A DNA stretch of 64,000 bases from Henriciella marina DSM 19595 (GTDB lineage Bacteria; Pseudomonadota; Alphaproteobacteria; Caulobacterales; Hyphomonadaceae). Of the stretch, positions 30,052 through 36,413 are shown piece by piece. The notes below the pieces were generated by a model that saw only the letters and a list, made by a program, of their open reading frames with translations, searched no databases and was not told the DNA's origin. A program made the position numbers and the translations under genes. Positions within the stretch are counted from its first letter, which is position 1. Every line of letters begins with the position of its first letter. The DNA lies in NCBI RefSeq assembly GCF_000376805.1, contig NZ_AQXT01000002.1, forward strand, positions 1,860,001 through 1,924,000. Direction: 5' to 3'.

Positions 30052-31812
30052 CTACCCTTTCCTTTGGTTGGCGACGCGCAAGGGGACGACATTGTCCTCC
30101 ACGGGCGGCTGTTCAAGGCTGTCACTGCCGCGAACATCCAGAATCTGAAGCCCCGGAATAGCTTCGATCGCCGCCGCAACGTCGGTATCGGCCCGAACGG
30201 CTTCGATCCGCTCCTGCTTCAGCCGGTCCTCGCGCTCACTGACGGTTTCGCCGGGCGCGTCGGGCCGCGATTTGCGCACATCCCACTCATGCCCGGTCGA
30301 GATTTCAAGAAAATCTGTGAGGCGTCGAAGCAGGTCCACCGGCGCGCCGTCTTTCAGGTCGCAGCTTATCGTCCCGTCGGCAAAGACCGATGGCCGGATA
30401 TAGGCCTTCGCCTCGCCCCATAGGACGGGTTCACGTTCTTTCTCCAGCAAGTCGAGGACATCGTCGAACTTGGAAAGCTTCGCGCCCGGCTCGCCGCCAA
30501 CCGGCACCACGTTCGGGTCTTCCTTGCCGCCCCGGCCCCGGCCGCTTGATCCGTTATTGCTGCCCCCGCCGCCCTGGGCGATCAGCCTTGCGGCATCCTC
30601 GGGCGATGGCAGGCTGGCAGCTGTCACAAGCCGCAGGATAACCATGCGAAGCGCCACATCTGCCTCCGGCGCGCTCTGGGTGTCGCGATAGCCCGACAGC
30701 AGGATCTGCCAGTTGCGCTGGGCCTGCGCCGGGGTCACACTGTCAGCGATCTGCCGGGTGCGGGTGGTCCAGTCGGACGGGCCGGGCAGGACATAATTAT
30801 CGCCCATCGCCTGAACCGTGGCGACGTCTGCGGCGATCTCAAGCAGATCCTTCATCAGGATCAGCGGATCTGCGCCGATCTGGATCTGATCGGTAATCTC
30901 GCTGACCGCCTCACTCGCCTTGCCAGTGACAGCGTATTCAAAGGCATCTAGCAGACGCAGCCGGTCGCCAAGGCCGAGCATGTCGCGAACGGCTGCGCCG
31001 GTAATTTCGCCGCCATCGAGACCCTGCACGATGGCCTGGTCGAGGATGGAAAGCCCGTCACGGACGGAGCCTTCTGCAGCGCGGGCGATCAGTGTGATGC
31101 CCTCTTCGGAAATCTTTGCGCCTTCGCGGCCAGCAATCTTACCAAGGTGCGCGGCCAGTTCGCCGGTATCGAGCCGTTTCAGGTCAAACCGCTGACAGCG
31201 CGAGAGAACCGTGACGGGCACTTTGCGAATTTCGGTCGTCGCGAAGATGAACTTCACATGTGGCGGCGGCTCTTCGAGGGTCTTCAGGAGCGCATTGAAG
31301 GACGCCGTCGACAGCATGTGAACTTCGTCGATGATGTAGACCTTGTAGCGCGCCGACTGGGGCGAGTAGCGCACGCCGTCCAGCAGGTCGCGCATATCGG
31401 CGACACCGGTTCTGGAGGCTGCATCGAGCTCAAGCACGTCAGGGTGGCGGCTCTCCATGATGGCCTTGCAGTGCTCCCCCGGCGGGTCGAGCTTGAGGCT
31501 AGGCCCCGCATGATCGGGACCGTCATAGTTGAAAGCACGCGCGAGCAACCTCGCTGTCGTTGTCTTGCCGACGCCGCGAACGCCGGTCAGCATGAAGGCG
31601 TGGGCGATGCGGTTCAGCTCGAACGCATTGCGCATCGTGCGAACCATCGCTTCCTGGCCGATCAGGTCAGAGAAAAGCTTCGGTCGGTATTTGCGCGCCA
31701 GCACCTGATAGGACGCGCCAGCCTTTGCGGGGGCCGCTTCCTCCTCCGCGAACATGGAGAAGGTAGCGTCGTCGCGCTCTTCGGCGCCGGGAAGGTCTGT
31801 CTCATCGCTCAT
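30052..31812 (-). CDS. dnaX: DNA polymerase III subunit gamma/tau DnaX
   Basis: A 586-residue clamp-loader ATPase. An acidic N-terminal extension of about 30 residues precedes YQVLARKYRPKLFSDLIG. Walker A is GVRGVGKTTTAR, the DEVHMLS motif contains Walker B, and the sensor 1 region is FIFATTEIRKVP. The usual Cys cluster of the zinc module is reduced to one Cys (GEHCKAI). C-terminal to residue 400 a low-complexity Gly/Asn linker leads to the tau-specific domain that contacts DnaE. No frameshift heptamer for a gamma form was seen. It is the first gene of the dnaX-ybaB-recR operon. Confidence 0.95.
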   Translation of the reverse strand: MSDETDLPGAEERDDATFSMFAEEEAAPAKAGASYQVLARKYRPKLFSDLIGQEAMVRTMRNAFELNRIAHAFMLTGVRGVGKTTTARLLARAFNYDGPDHAGPSLKLDPPGEHCKAIMESRHPDVLELDAASRTGVADMRDLLDGVRYSPQSARYKVYIIDEVHMLSTASFNALLKTLEEPPPHVKFIFATTEIRKVPVTVLSRCQRFDLKRLDTGELAAHLGKIAGREGAKISEEGITLIARAAEGSVRDGLSILDQAIVQGLDGGEITGAAVRDMLGLGDRLRLLDAFEYAVTGKASEAVSEITDQIQIGADPLILMKDLLEIAADVATVQAMGDNYVLPGPSDWTTRTRQIADSVTPAQAQRNWQILLSGYRDTQSAPEADVALRMVILRLVTAASLPSPEDAARLIAQGGGGSNNGSSGRGRGGKEDPNVVPVGGEPGAKLSKFDDVLDLLEKEREPVLWGEAKAYIRPSVFADGTISCDLKDGAPVDLLRRLTDFLEISTGHEWDVRKSRPDAPGETVSEREDRLKQERIEAVRADTDVAAAIEAIPGLQILDVRGSDSLEQPPVEDNVVPLRVANQRKG

Positions 31813-31912: not shown

Positions 31913-33406
31913 ATGACCAAGGCACTCCTGATCTTCCCGCACCAGCTTTTCAACAACCATCCGGGGCTCGACAAGCGCCCGGACCGGATCTGCCTTGTCG
32001 AGGACACGCTGCTCTTTGGCGACCGGCAATATCCCATGCGCTTTCACAAGCAGAAACTCTGGCTGCACCGGGCCTCGATGTCGCGCTATGCCAAGCGGCT
32101 CGAAGGACTGAAACCGGACTTTGAGTATATTCGCTATGACGCCGGCAAGCCGCTTCTCAAGCCAACAATCGCGCGCCTCGCCAGGGCCGGTTTCGATGAG
32201 GTGATGACCTGCGACCCATCTGATTTCATTCTGGAAAAACGGCTCAAATCCTATTGCGACGCTGAAGGCCTAGAGCTGACGCTGATCAACACCCCGCTTT
32301 TCCTGAACACGCCGGGCGAGAACCGGGCGTGGCGGGAAGATCACAAGTCGTGGTTCCAGGCGGAGTTCTACAAACGCCAGCGCCGCCAGTTCGATGTCCT
32401 CATGAACGGCGACAAGCCCAAGGGCGACCAGTGGAGCTTTGACGATGAGAACCGCAAGAAGGTGCCGAAGAAGCTCAGAGAGAGCGTTCCCCAGCTGCCC
32501 GCCAAAGAGCCTGACGAGATCGAGGAAGAGGCGCGGCGGTCGGTCGAAAAGGACTTCCCGGACAATTACGGCTCGCTCGACACCCTCTACTGGCCGACCA
32601 GCCATGAGGATGCCGAGAGCTGGCTTGGGCAATTCCTGAATGAGCGCTTCGAGCTGTTCGGCCCCTATGAGGACGCCATTCTGGAGGGCGAGACCCTCCT
32701 CTGGCATTCGGCGATCACGCCGATGCTGAATATCGGACTTCTGACGCCGCAGCTGGTGCTGGATGCGGCGAAAGCCTTCATCGTGACCAAAGACATCCCG
32801 ATGAATTCGGCCGAAGGCTTCCTCCGGCAGGTCATTGGCTGGCGCGAGTTCATGCGCGCGACTTATGAGGATATCGGCGTCCCGATGCGCACCACGAACC
32901 ATTGGGGCCATACGCGCAGTTTGCCGGAAAGCTTCTGGACCGGTGAGACGGGGATCGGCCCCATTGATGATGTCATCAAGCGCATCCTCAAGACCGGCTA
33001 CTGCCACCATATCGAGCGGCTGATGGTGCTCGGCGGGTTCATGTTCATCTGCGAGATCGACCCGGACGATATCTACAGATGGTTCATGGAGATGTTCGCC
33101 GACAGCTATGACTGGGTCATGGTGCCGAACGCCTATGCGATGAGCCAGAACGCCGATGGCGGGCGCATCACGACGAAGCCTTACTTCTCCGGCTCAGCCT
33201 ATATCCGCAAGATGGGCAACCATGAGACAGGCGAGTGGTGCGACATCTGGGATGGCCTTTACTGGCGCTGGATCTGGCGTAATCGCGAGGCACTGGCGGG
33301 CAATCCGCGTTGGGCGATGATGGTCTCGATGGCCGAGAAGATGGACGGGGAGAAACGTCAGAAGCATCTGGATGTGGCGGCGAACTTTTTGCGGGGATTG
33401 GGGTAG
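31913..33406 (+). CDS. Cryptochrome/photolyase-related protein (FeS-BCP/DPRP family)
   Basis: The 497-residue protein opens with LIFPHQLFNNHPGL and FHKQKLWLHRASM, the N-terminal alpha/beta domain of deoxyribodipyrimidine photolyase-related proteins, and continues with the FAD-binding helical domain (EGFLRQVIGWREFMRATY, HHIERLMVLGGFMFI, WVMVPNAYAMSQNADGG). The family includes the 4Fe-4S (6-4) photolyase PhrB. The C-x2-C cluster ligands found there between GAYIxxM and the LYW motif are absent; instead one finds YIRKMGNHETGEWCDIWDGL. DNA repair of UV (6-4) products or a light-sensing role is possible. It is divergent from dnaX. Confidence 0.8.
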   Translation: MTKALLIFPHQLFNNHPGLDKRPDRICLVEDTLLFGDRQYPMRFHKQKLWLHRASMSRYAKRLEGLKPDFEYIRYDAGKPLLKPTIARLARAGFDEVMTCDPSDFILEKRLKSYCDAEGLELTLINTPLFLNTPGENRAWREDHKSWFQAEFYKRQRRQFDVLMNGDKPKGDQWSFDDENRKKVPKKLRESVPQLPAKEPDEIEEEARRSVEKDFPDNYGSLDTLYWPTSHEDAESWLGQFLNERFELFGPYEDAILEGETLLWHSAITPMLNIGLLTPQLVLDAAKAFIVTKDIPMNSAEGFLRQVIGWREFMRATYEDIGVPMRTTNHWGHTRSLPESFWTGETGIGPIDDVIKRILKTGYCHHIERLMVLGGFMFICEIDPDDIYRWFMEMFADSYDWVMVPNAYAMSQNADGGRITTKPYFSGSAYIRKMGNHETGEWCDIWDGLYWRWIWRNREALAGNPRWAMMVSMAEKMDGEKRQKHLDVAANFLRGLG

Positions 33407-33592: not shown

Positions 33593-33985
33593 CTAAGGCG
33601 GCACCAGCACATGCGGCAGGCCGGTGAGCAGACCGCCCTGCCCGGCCAGCACGGCGCCCAGCCCCGTCGCCGCAATGATGATGCCAATCCCCTCGCCAGC
33701 CCGCGCCATCAGGGCGCTTGCGCGCGCCTCGGGGTCGAGCTTTTCCCAAGGGGTGCGCGCGGCAAAGACAGTCCAGTCATTGGCAGGTTTTCGGTCCCCG
33801 CGCACGTCCAGCGTGATAATGATGCGGCCGGTCTTCAGCACGCTATAGCCCACCAGACCGGACCCGCCCTTGGCGCGCTCCGCCTTGAGGTACCGGTCGA
33901 GCCGGTAAACCTCGACCAGGAAAATGGGCCAGACCCATATTTCGAGGGCGGCAAGCGTGTCGAGGATGAAGTCGCGGTCGATCAT
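33593..33985 (-). CDS. Hypothetical membrane-associated protein
   Basis: Starting at MIDRDFILDTLAALEIWVWP the protein has 130 residues; a longer frame adds a Pro-rich, unlikely N-terminus. It shows a hydrophobic stretch at the start (EIWVWPIFLVEVY) and a second near the C-terminus (IGIIIAATGLGAVLAGQGGLLTG). Between them lies a basic/acidic soluble segment. No family is recognised. Confidence 0.5.
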   Translation of the reverse strand: MIDRDFILDTLAALEIWVWPIFLVEVYRLDRYLKAERAKGGSGLVGYSVLKTGRIIITLDVRGDRKPANDWTVFAARTPWEKLDPEARASALMARAGEGIGIIIAATGLGAVLAGQGGLLTGLPHVLVPP

Positions 33986-34116
33986 GGAGGCGGAGCCTAG
34001 ACGGGCGCGCCGGGGGGCGGATGTTTTTGGTGCGCTCGGGGTGGTTGCACGGTGTACCGGCGGTGTCTGGGCGGTGTTTTGGGGTGGGGGTTCTGCGGGA
34101 TGAGGGAAGCTGGAGG

Positions 34117-34210
34117 TCGTCATCCCGGAATTTGCGCCAGCACATATCCGGGACCGAGCGCGTTTTTAAGCGGCTGGGTCCCGGATCGCCTGCGGCGTCC
34201 GGGATGACGA
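34117..34210. repeat. Intergenic palindromic repeat (TCATCCCGGA type)
   Basis: Outer arms TCGTCATCCCGGA and TCCGGGATGACGA (13 bases, perfect) enclose an inner perfect pair ATCCGGGACC/GGTCCCGGAT. The GTCATCCCGGA/TCCGGGATGAC ends are those of a dispersed alphaproteobacterial repeat. It marks the GC-rich side of the boundary to the AT-rich region. Confidence 0.75.
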
Positions 34211-34600
34211 AAAGCGGGAAGAGCACACCTGACCGTGGATGCGCTCATTCGTGCGAAGGCTGGCATTAGTTCGTAACACCCGAGAATCAGTTGAGTGGAC
34301 GGATTTCAGTTAAGAGATAAGGGGGCCCATCAAAAGTCTGTGAATTTAGCAGATAGAGCTTGCGCGTGGCTGAATAAGCAGAGGAACCTCGCTAACTTGC
34401 GACGCCTAAAGCCTATGTCTGAATCTCCGTCGCGGCCAGCGCGTCGGCATCGTCCTAGCCGTTTCGTCGACGATAAGCTGACGTCAGATGTGTAACTATA
34501 GTAAAGTTTGTCGGGTGACAGTTGGCTAGCCTGGAAGAAACATCAATGCTTGAATGATCTAATGTTCTATCCATTTCGGGGTAAACGTGGGGCCTTATAA
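34211..34600. other. Non-coding transition into AT-rich DNA
   Basis: After the palindromic repeat about 390 bases hold no convincing gene. A 66-residue GTG-started frame at 34295-34495 has no ribosome site, and its product resembles nothing I know. From about 34480 base composition shifts visibly to AT-rich, continuing through the next gene. No att site, integrase or transposase remnant was recognised. Confidence 0.5.
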
Positions 34601-35746
34601 ATGCAGAAGCGGGACTCTGGAAGCGAGAACGAAGCCTTTATATCGTTAAAGTCGCTCTTCTTCGTAGGCGGCGCCCTAATTTGGGCAGCCAATCAAAACT
34701 GGCTGCAGATGGCTCAGTTTTACGATGAGTTTCTTGTGTTATGGCGAGATTTCATAAGGGCATTATGGTCCGAATTTTTTTCTCTGCTGCATTTACCATT
34801 CGACCTCCGAGGCTATCAAAAAGACATTCTAAGCATCATAGCCGTTTTGCTAGGATCTGCGGTTACCCGTGCATTTTTTAAGAAACCACCACCCACACTT
34901 TTTAAGAAAAATCTTCTTCGCATAAGGAAAGAAGCAGAGGAAAAATACAAAAGAGCAAGCTTTTACCACTCTCTTCTCAGAGTTACACACCGAGCATTGC
35001 TCTCTGTGCATATTATTGCCGCCGGATCCATACTATATTTTTTGTTGATACTTCCATTCTTAGATACTTTTGAGTTCACGCACGAATTTAAATTCTTATT
35101 GTTTGCGGCAATAGTTTTTTATACTATAATTGTTTCAATATTATTGATAGCGATATCTATACTTATTTGGAGAAAGATAGATACAATAAGCGCGAAGGCA
35201 ATAAGGGCAAAAGTAATCTATATCCAAGAACTATTCAAAAAAACTTGGAAATATATACGTAGAGGTGGATGGAAAAATATTTTTTCCCACAGATTTAGAT
35301 CTATATTTATATTGTATTTAGTAAATATGGGATTGATCATAATTGTTGTTAAAGTGTATCAAATTTTTGGACATGAAAGAATAAAACAATATTTTACTAA
35401 AAGTATTGATCATTCTAAATTTAATCCAGCTGAATATGTGATGAGCATTCTAAATGGCGATTACATAGATTTGCTTCTTATAATACTATGTTTTGTAACT
35501 CTTTTCTTTGCCTCCGGCAGAAGCCTTAGACCAATTGCGCAGTTTGTAACAATCGGACTGATAATAGTGGCGATAGGCGTGGCTTCTCGAGCAGTGCTAA
35601 AAATAAGCCCCTCATTGAATGAGCAGACGGCACAGACTGTCGTGCATGCCGAATCGTGGACATCGCCAATCTCATTAGCTGATATTTTCGAAACACTTGT
35701 AGACAGCCAGCAGAGCTCTGCAGTGAACTGCACTCAGAAGGAATAG
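34601..35746 (+). CDS. Orphan AT-rich multi-pass membrane protein
   Basis: The 381-residue protein has about seven hydrophobic segments (near residues 17-32, 75-92, 132-155, 164-190, 236-256, 290-310 and 315-335) with basic cytoplasmic stretches (KKPPPTLFKKNLLRIRKE, RAKVIYIQELFKKTWKY). I recognise no family. Codon use is strikingly unlike the rest of the window: ATA, AAA, TTT and TTA are common, while neighbours are dominated by GC-ending codons. This is a sign of recent acquisition. It stands alone, reading toward a truncated SRP RNA copy 31 bases downstream. Confidence 0.6.
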   Translation: MQKRDSGSENEAFISLKSLFFVGGALIWAANQNWLQMAQFYDEFLVLWRDFIRALWSEFFSLLHLPFDLRGYQKDILSIIAVLLGSAVTRAFFKKPPPTLFKKNLLRIRKEAEEKYKRASFYHSLLRVTHRALLSVHIIAAGSILYFLLILPFLDTFEFTHEFKFLLFAAIVFYTIIVSILLIAISILIWRKIDTISAKAIRAKVIYIQELFKKTWKYIRRGGWKNIFSHRFRSIFILYLVNMGLIIIVVKVYQIFGHERIKQYFTKSIDHSKFNPAEYVMSILNGDYIDLLLIILCFVTLFFASGRSLRPIAQFVTIGLIIVAIGVASRAVLKISPSLNEQTAQTVVHAESWTSPISLADIFETLVDSQQSSAVNCTQKE

Positions 35747-35776
35747 GTATCTAGTGAAGTCAAAACAAACCGAAGC

Positions 35777-35847
35777 GGAGACTGAACCGCAACTCGAAAC
35801 GAAAGTCGTTAGGGCCGCTTCGTTCCCGACCTGACCCGGTTAGCGAG
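35777..35847 (-). pseudogene. 5'-truncated second copy of the SRP RNA gene
   Basis: These 71 bases align without gaps to 36319-36389 of the intact ffs gene, with 9 differences by my count. They include the GGAA tetraloop and the CAGG side of the symmetric loop, but the opposite side reads AGCG instead of AGCA. The match stops abruptly at the start of the 5' arm of the long helix, so the RNA could not fold. The TIMP-like gene begins just beyond (its stop is at 35854). Confidence 0.7.
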
Positions 35848-35853
35848 AGCTAG

Positions 35854-36282
35854 TTATTCGGGCGATTGCGTGGCTTCCAGCGCGGTGCGCACATTTTGTC
35901 CGTATCGTGTGTAGCCGTGTAAGGCGCAGGCGTTCGTCGCAGGAAAATAATCTGTGCCGTCGCTCGCGAATACTAATCGCTCTTCACCCGGTTCAAAGCT
36001 GACCTTGCAAGACGAAAATTCCGAAGGGTGACGCACATAAATGCGCGCTCCGGATGCGCCCTTGTAGGCCTGCGTGATTTTGAAAGAGGTTACATACCCG
36101 GATGAGCCTCGTTCATCACCTTCTGTCGCGATACGGAGGGTCTCTTCAGCCACGCCGACGAAAACATGATCGGCACCGCCCACCTTCTCGCTAACAGTTT
36201 TCGGCGGCAAACAAGAGCAGGCTTCAGCGGCGACTGACAGGCTGGCAAAGGCCGCGGTGAGCGCAAACGATTTTGCAATCAT
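35854..36282 (-). CDS. Secreted TIMP/NTR-like protein
   Basis: The 142-residue precursor has a signal peptide ending at about VAAEA, so the mature chain begins CSCLPPKTVSEKVGGADHVF. An N-terminal Cys-x-Cys followed by an 'A-D-x-V-F-x-G' strand is the layout of tissue-inhibitor-of-metalloproteinase/netrin-like domains. Two more Cys (FSSCKVSF and TNACALHG) can pair with them. Whether it inhibits proteases is not known; bacterial members are uncharacterised. The gene lies exactly between the truncated and the intact SRP RNA copies, on the same strand as both. Confidence 0.6.
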   Translation of the reverse strand: MIAKSFALTAAFASLSVAAEACSCLPPKTVSEKVGGADHVFVGVAEETLRIATEGDERGSSGYVTSFKITQAYKGASGARIYVRHPSEFSSCKVSFEPGEERLVFASDGTDYFPATNACALHGYTRYGQNVRTALEATQSPE

Positions 36283-36318
36283 CCGCGCAGACTAGATCGG
36301 AATTCAGGAATTGAAAGC

Positions 36319-36413
36319 GGAGACTGGACAGTGACCCGAAGCGAAACTCGTTAGGGCTGCTTCGTTCCCGACCTGACCCGGTTGGCGAGGACTTCGTCCA
36401 CCGCCAGCCTCCT
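36319..36413 (-). ncRNA. ffs: 4.5S-type signal recognition particle RNA
   Basis: On the minus strand the hallmark GGTCAGG-TCG-GGAA-CGA-AGCAGCC is complete: GGAA tetraloop on a UCG/CGA stem, CAGG/AGCA symmetric loop, GGGU/GCCC stem. The arms continue as CUCG/CGAG, CGAAG/CUUCG, CGGUGG/UCACUG and GGAGGCUGG/CCAGUCUCC, giving one long hairpin of about 95 nt, the normal size of the small bacterial SRP RNA. It binds Ffh and targets membrane proteins to FtsY. End positions are set by the last base pairs and may be a few bases off. Confidence 0.92.

Follow-up and report, generated by a model that had tools for sequence, protein, structure and literature searches.

The window analysed here, a stretch of 64,000 nucleotides of Henriciella marina DSM 19595, carries an intact 4.5S SRP RNA gene (ffs) and, downstream of it, a broken second copy that stands between two protein-coding ORFs. 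No tRNA was found in the 64,000-nt window, and no promoter-like sites were listed between ffs and the ORF that follows it. The features of the locus, from left to right, are:

30052..31812, minus strand: dnaX-like gene, named by eye; a left anchor
31913..33406, plus strand: photolyase-related gene (PF04244); left anchor in many relatives
33593..34123, minus strand: ORF m176, which matches no family; left neighbour common to the sister genomes
34118..34315, no strand: putative left edge of the swapped segment; pieces shared with sister genomes, where they lie between m176 and cargo
34601..35746, plus strand: orphan membrane-protein ORF of 381 aa, GC 0.38; convergent with the ffs fragment and 26 bp from its 3' end
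35773..35847, minus strand: ffs 3' fragment, a putative pseudogene scar; 66/75 identical to 36315-36389, fold lost
35854..36282, minus strand: ORF of 142 aa for a predicted TIMP/netrin-like secreted protein; 33 bp downstream of ffs on the same strand
36316..36412, minus strand: intact ffs; RF00169 60.4 bits
36471..37406, plus strand: NADH-pyrophosphatase-type NUDIX gene (nudC-like); right anchor adjoining ffs

The original prediction, made from the letters of the sequence, had placed an intact SRP RNA gene at 36319-36413 and a 5'-truncated copy about 540 bases downstream on the same strand, with exactly one small gene between them. All of this holds, the covariance model RF00169 (Bacteria_small_SRP) placing the gene at 36316-36412 and the copy, at an offset of 542, corresponding to ffs nt 24-97, approximately, plus one base. 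The copy had been described as 71 bases, ungapped and with nine mismatches; the ungapped alignment and the nine mismatches stand, and the length is 75 nt (66/75 identical, 12% divergence). The fragment scores 37.9 bits in RF00169, with E 4.7e-6 in a search of 1,801 bases and 2.0e-6 in the whole genome. This score lies below the gathering score of 40; the fragment is therefore missing from the first RF00169 scan and falls outside the family as a working gene. The sequence similarity between the two copies is nevertheless too strong for chance, and the fragment derives from ffs. Its being a member of a dispersed repeat family is ruled out, as only two copies score in the genome and the third RF00169 match has E 6.56.

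Two properties of a working SRP RNA are gone from the fragment. The predicted change of AGCA to AGCG in the Ffh-contacting loop is present, at position 32, where A occurs in 54/54 other ffs genes of the family that were compared, and the hairpin fold is lost (z +0.6, with 141/200 shuffles folding at least as well, against z -2.5 for the intact gene). The nine changed states comprise two that occur in the genus and four that occur in the family, the others being private among the 54 family ffs genes compared. Changes fall at genus-variable columns in 4/9 cases, compared with 20/75 columns overall (p 0.19; rank test p 0.08), and the same test for family-variable columns gives p 0.28 (rank test p 0.10). 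Because enrichment at variable columns is not clear, origin from a donor and decay in place both fit. At one end, the homology of the fragment stops at the same 3' edge at which ffs meets unrelated DNA in relatives; at the other (ffs nt 23/24), it joins the end of the TIMP-like gene without visible homology.

Comparison with relatives places this edge in a wider context. On the ffs 5' side, the nudC-like gene is found in 28/28 relatives of the genus, within 481 bp as measured by alignment start. On the 3' side, the contigs of 5/28 relatives end before the left anchor; among the remaining 23, the distance from ffs to dnaX or the photolyase-like gene is no more than 265 bp in eight, and other DNA of 666 to 4711 bp lies between ffs and the left anchor in 15. 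When the 14 nearer of the 29 genus genomes are compared position by position without gaps, mean pairwise identity is 0.98 in ffs, 0.65 and 0.73 in the 50 nt upstream, and 0.28, 0.25 and 0.25 at 3-10, 10-30 and 30-60 nt downstream, where about 25% is chance; for the seven sister genomes among these 14, the values are 77-79% upstream, 100% in ffs and 23-25% downstream. Even three genomes whose genes in the region are 89-96% identical (G001, G011 and G016) have different DNA next to ffs. GC content is often reduced in the variable DNA. In 11/19 genomes examined, the cargo ORF closest to ffs, counting those of 120 aa or more, is convergent with it and stops at a distance of 2-173 bp.

The cargo varies by genome and often resembles defence genes. 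It includes a CBASS-like pair of a CD-NTase and a Cap15-type effector directly beside ffs (L064 in G005), a PDC-S19 candidate (G003), an HNH protein (G016), a weak PDC-S32/AbiJ match (G006), a methyltransferase (G017), deaminases (G002 and G026) and a Fic protein (G010). Hotspot proteins for family searches were selected by eye among mechanically listed ORFs: 9/10 match a Pfam model at E up to 0.01, one of them below its cut-off, and 7/8 of those from relatives match PADLOC at the same E limit, the matches being weak or partial in two cases (G006 and G026). A related 130-aa protein ending in NSIPFQPGSS lies next to ffs in G004 and G011 (L063 and L070; 49% identical), and the one searched has no Pfam match. 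Conserved flanks around unrelated cargo, the pattern by which we recognize a hotspot, are thus found at ffs, and we read these DNA differences as repeated swapping, with the ffs 3' end as one edge of a swap hotspot in the genus.

The gene between the two copies had been called TIMP-like, and that description holds for a predicted fold taken from a low-confidence model. The Pfam TIMP model (PF00965) gives 11.9, below its gathering score of 23.1, and matches 1/3 of the TIMP homologues at E up to 1. A structure search with the weak model (pLDDT 59) places TIMP-2 first of 653 matches (E 1.3e-4), and the 16 matches with E up to 0.001 are nearly all TIMP, NTR or agrin NtA, such that the closest modelled resemblance would be to the OB-folds of TIMP-2, the PCOLCE1 NTR domain, agrin NtA and TIMP-1. 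TIMPs start with CxC; the mature N-terminus of the H. marina protein would, after the presumed signal cleavage, be CSC, and four cysteines are common to three TIMP-like homologues. Unlike established TIMP/NTR proteins, the ORF is bacterial, with the low Pfam score and model confidence given above. Further weak matches are to tail-fibre and tail-spike proteins (E 0.039 and 0.033) and to DUF1889 (E 0.12).

Homologues occur in 4 of the 28 genus relatives. In G024, the homologue lies 34 bp from a single ffs, much as in H. marina, and the two proteins are 36% identical; the TIMP-like gene is therefore not defined by bracketing repeats, contrary to the proposal that the two ffs copies mark the ends of a TIMP insert. 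In G007, the homologue lies beside the photolyase-like gene and ffs is on another contig, and in G004 and G026 the TIMP-like genes are more than 150 kb from ffs, so this type of gene is not tied to ffs. Given the low identity with G024 and the distant genes in G004 and G026, TIMP-ffs adjacency may have arisen repeatedly. Both homologues end in KWWW, which the H. marina protein lacks, as though it had been truncated where its gene joins the fragment. A 21-nt direct repeat (35577-35597 and 35868-35888, 81% identical) connects the 3' part of the 381-aa gene with the end of the TIMP-like gene and may be due to chance.

The 381-aa ORF on the far side of the fragment is an orphan. No relatives were found in 104 family relatives or, by six peptide patterns, in the genome contig collection; PADLOC and NCBIfam gave no match, Pfam and PHROGs gave weak matches only (E 0.011 and 0.016), and the structure model is poor (pLDDT 51). 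GC3 is 0.37 in this ORF and 0.57 in the TIMP-like ORF, versus 0.75-0.83 in three core genes. To its left, one piece (34118-34210) recurs in G003 and G016 and another (34252-34315) in G003 and G005, in each case between m176 and cargo; these stretches, recurring in three sister genomes, are perhaps a dispersed repeat. The order in the three sisters is photolyase-like gene, m176, one or both shared pieces, cargo and ffs, G016 having additional genes interspersed, while that in H. marina is photolyase-like gene, m176, shared pieces, 381-aa gene, broken ffs, TIMP-like gene and intact ffs. In position, the broken ffs therefore corresponds to the ffs of the sister genomes, and we take the 381-aa ORF as cargo that formerly abutted ffs.

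Altogether, the comparison with sister species suggests that the broken ffs is a leftover of gene swapping. In our preferred model, which we consider reasonably probable, the fragment is the remnant of a former junction between ffs and cargo, left behind by an exchange of cargo with one non-homologous end. Two arrangements would have preceded it, one in which ffs was followed by the convergent 381-aa cargo gene and one in which ffs was followed by a TIMP-like gene, the latter still existing in G024. The exchange would have been anchored by homology on one side, at either ffs/nudC or photolyase/dnaX, and non-homologous on the other, joining the end of the TIMP-like gene to nt 24 of ffs and generating the order ffs, TIMP, broken ffs, cargo. 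Bereft of promoter and 5' strand, the broken piece may then have decayed as a pseudogene, with the decay presumably following the event; either the TIMP-like gene or the 381-aa cargo could have been the later arrival. The fragment has diverged by 12%, less than the dS values between H. marina and four sister species (0.35-0.86, from four genes), and so fits an event in this lineage only. The 381-aa ORF, 26 bp from the fragment, has the same stance as the convergent cargo that faces ffs in relatives, although the 26-bp spacing could be coincidence. Against the fusion of two arrangements, a sharp ffs edge would also follow from site-specific insertion, the pair of ffs and fragment is seen in one genome only, and 0/104 family relatives qualify as a donor in which the 381-aa gene adjoins ffs.

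Site-specific integration, which the original prediction favoured, is unlikely in our view. An element with an attachment site at the ffs 3' end would have inserted and restored the gene, the displaced 3' end becoming the distal repeat, and everything except the TIMP-like gene, integrase included, would later have been deleted. The geometry fits, with the intact gene proximal and a 3' fragment distal on the same strand; element-free alleles exist, as 28/28 genus relatives have just one ffs match with E no higher than 0.1; and unrelated DNA repeatedly begins at the ffs 3' end. The general island pattern consists of an intact gene plus a displaced 3' piece, as the abstract of PMC4383910 states, and according to passages of PMC8637289, ffs is the integration site of the pneumococcal prophage group PPH015. 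The H. marina locus resembles these islands and prophages in having ffs as target and an intact gene with a 3' piece, and differs from them in its tiny insert, its diverged repeat, the absence of an integrase from our searches and the absence of a second example from the genus. With PF00589 (tyrosine integrases) as the only model, the nearest of four matches in the genome is at least 400 kb away, and among the PF00589 matches listed for relatives none has an ffs close by on its contig. Attachment repeats are expected to be near-identical, whereas these are 88% identical, which could be decay after integration, and the unit is small (542 bp, one gene). No 3' ffs repeat was found within up to 5 kb downstream in 27 relatives (four over less than 2 kb, G019 left out), the best ungapped stretches scoring 9-13, presumably at chance level. 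Viral contigs with either exact ffs pattern numbered 0, and no phage record was found; the 12 matches of ffs to plasmid records (80-90% identity) are to records of 1.2-4.6 Mb that we take as chromosome-like. With the TIMP homologue beside a single ffs in G024 as a further point against it, site-specific integration has only partial support at this locus: geometry, copy-free alleles and recurrent edge fit, but an integrase, clean repeats and a second example are wanting.

Segmental duplication, the alternative named alongside integration, appears quite unlikely. Here, the 75-nt ffs piece would have been copied downstream of the TIMP-like gene by template switching, apart from any exchange of cargo, and this would be a simple one-step event, in keeping with a dead copy. 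However, it leaves unexplained both the 3' edge that the fragment shares with the cargo junctions and the convergent cargo gene 26 bp away, and no other such pair was found among the 105 family genomes searched. It is also tempting to speculate that small, often anti-phage cargo cassettes attach at the ffs 3' end throughout the genus, with an integrase acting in trans or lost, and that the fragment is the only surviving trace of a displaced target end; we regard this as doubtful. Finally, we give almost no credence to the fragment being a functional small RNA or a 3' hairpin of the TIMP mRNA, for which one might cite its position just downstream of and co-directional with the TIMP-like gene and the presence of only 2 of the 9 changes in its first 42 nt, since it folds no better than shuffled sequence, has lost the invariant AGCA and is found in 0/28 genus relatives.

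The closest known counterparts include hotspots of horizontal transfer. Passages of Oliveira et al. (2017, PMC5635113) describe these as being renewed when the core genes on either side undergo homologous recombination, and as commonly being without integrases. As far as those passages characterize them, the ffs locus is similar in its conserved flanks, unrelated cargo, defence-like functions and lack of an integrase seen nearby, and different in that a small RNA gene forms one edge and one genome keeps a broken copy; the likeness is one of flanks and gene content. In the titles, abstract beginnings and passages that we searched, we found no report of an ffs hotspot in this genus, and a single paper in which prophages use ffs as their site (PMC8637289); passages of PMC12637031, PMC10383233 and PMC10763512 have no bearing on an ffs hotspot. 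Single exchange events are rarely visible, and one may be recorded in the broken ffs that two cargo genes flank. This putative scar is a useful local marker of an ordinary kind, not a new kind of system, and a search for defence genes in this genus could usefully start at the ffs edge.

The arrangement is rare. Two RF00169 matches at E up to 0.1 occur in 1/29 genus genomes, that of H. marina, and two at E up to 0.01 occur in 6/398 genomes of the order, in a survey with stricter filters that lose some weak matches and with the table read by eye; after inspection, a truncated copy beside an intact ffs was found only in H. marina (G000) among the 398. Other candidates were set aside: pieces that overlap but belong to separate contigs, with three of the four placed at the start of a contig (G097 and G305); full copies on different contigs of draft genomes (G322 and G348); a second piece ending exactly at a contig end, which we read as an assembly break (G019); and an extra full ffs 5 nt from a contig end (L088, G076:C2:2730001-2739872). 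This last copy lies beside ORFs read by eye as dnaX and recR and is perhaps foreign or misassembled. Draft assemblies also break inside ffs at L105 (G019:C216 end), L114, L119 and L120, giving short overlapping pieces on two contigs. In another genus of the same family, 31-nt matches to the ffs 5' part lie away from the gene (G067:C6:92975-93005, G050:C19:168580-168610 and G072:C3:69028-69058), with 87-90% identity and a best E of 1.7e-4.
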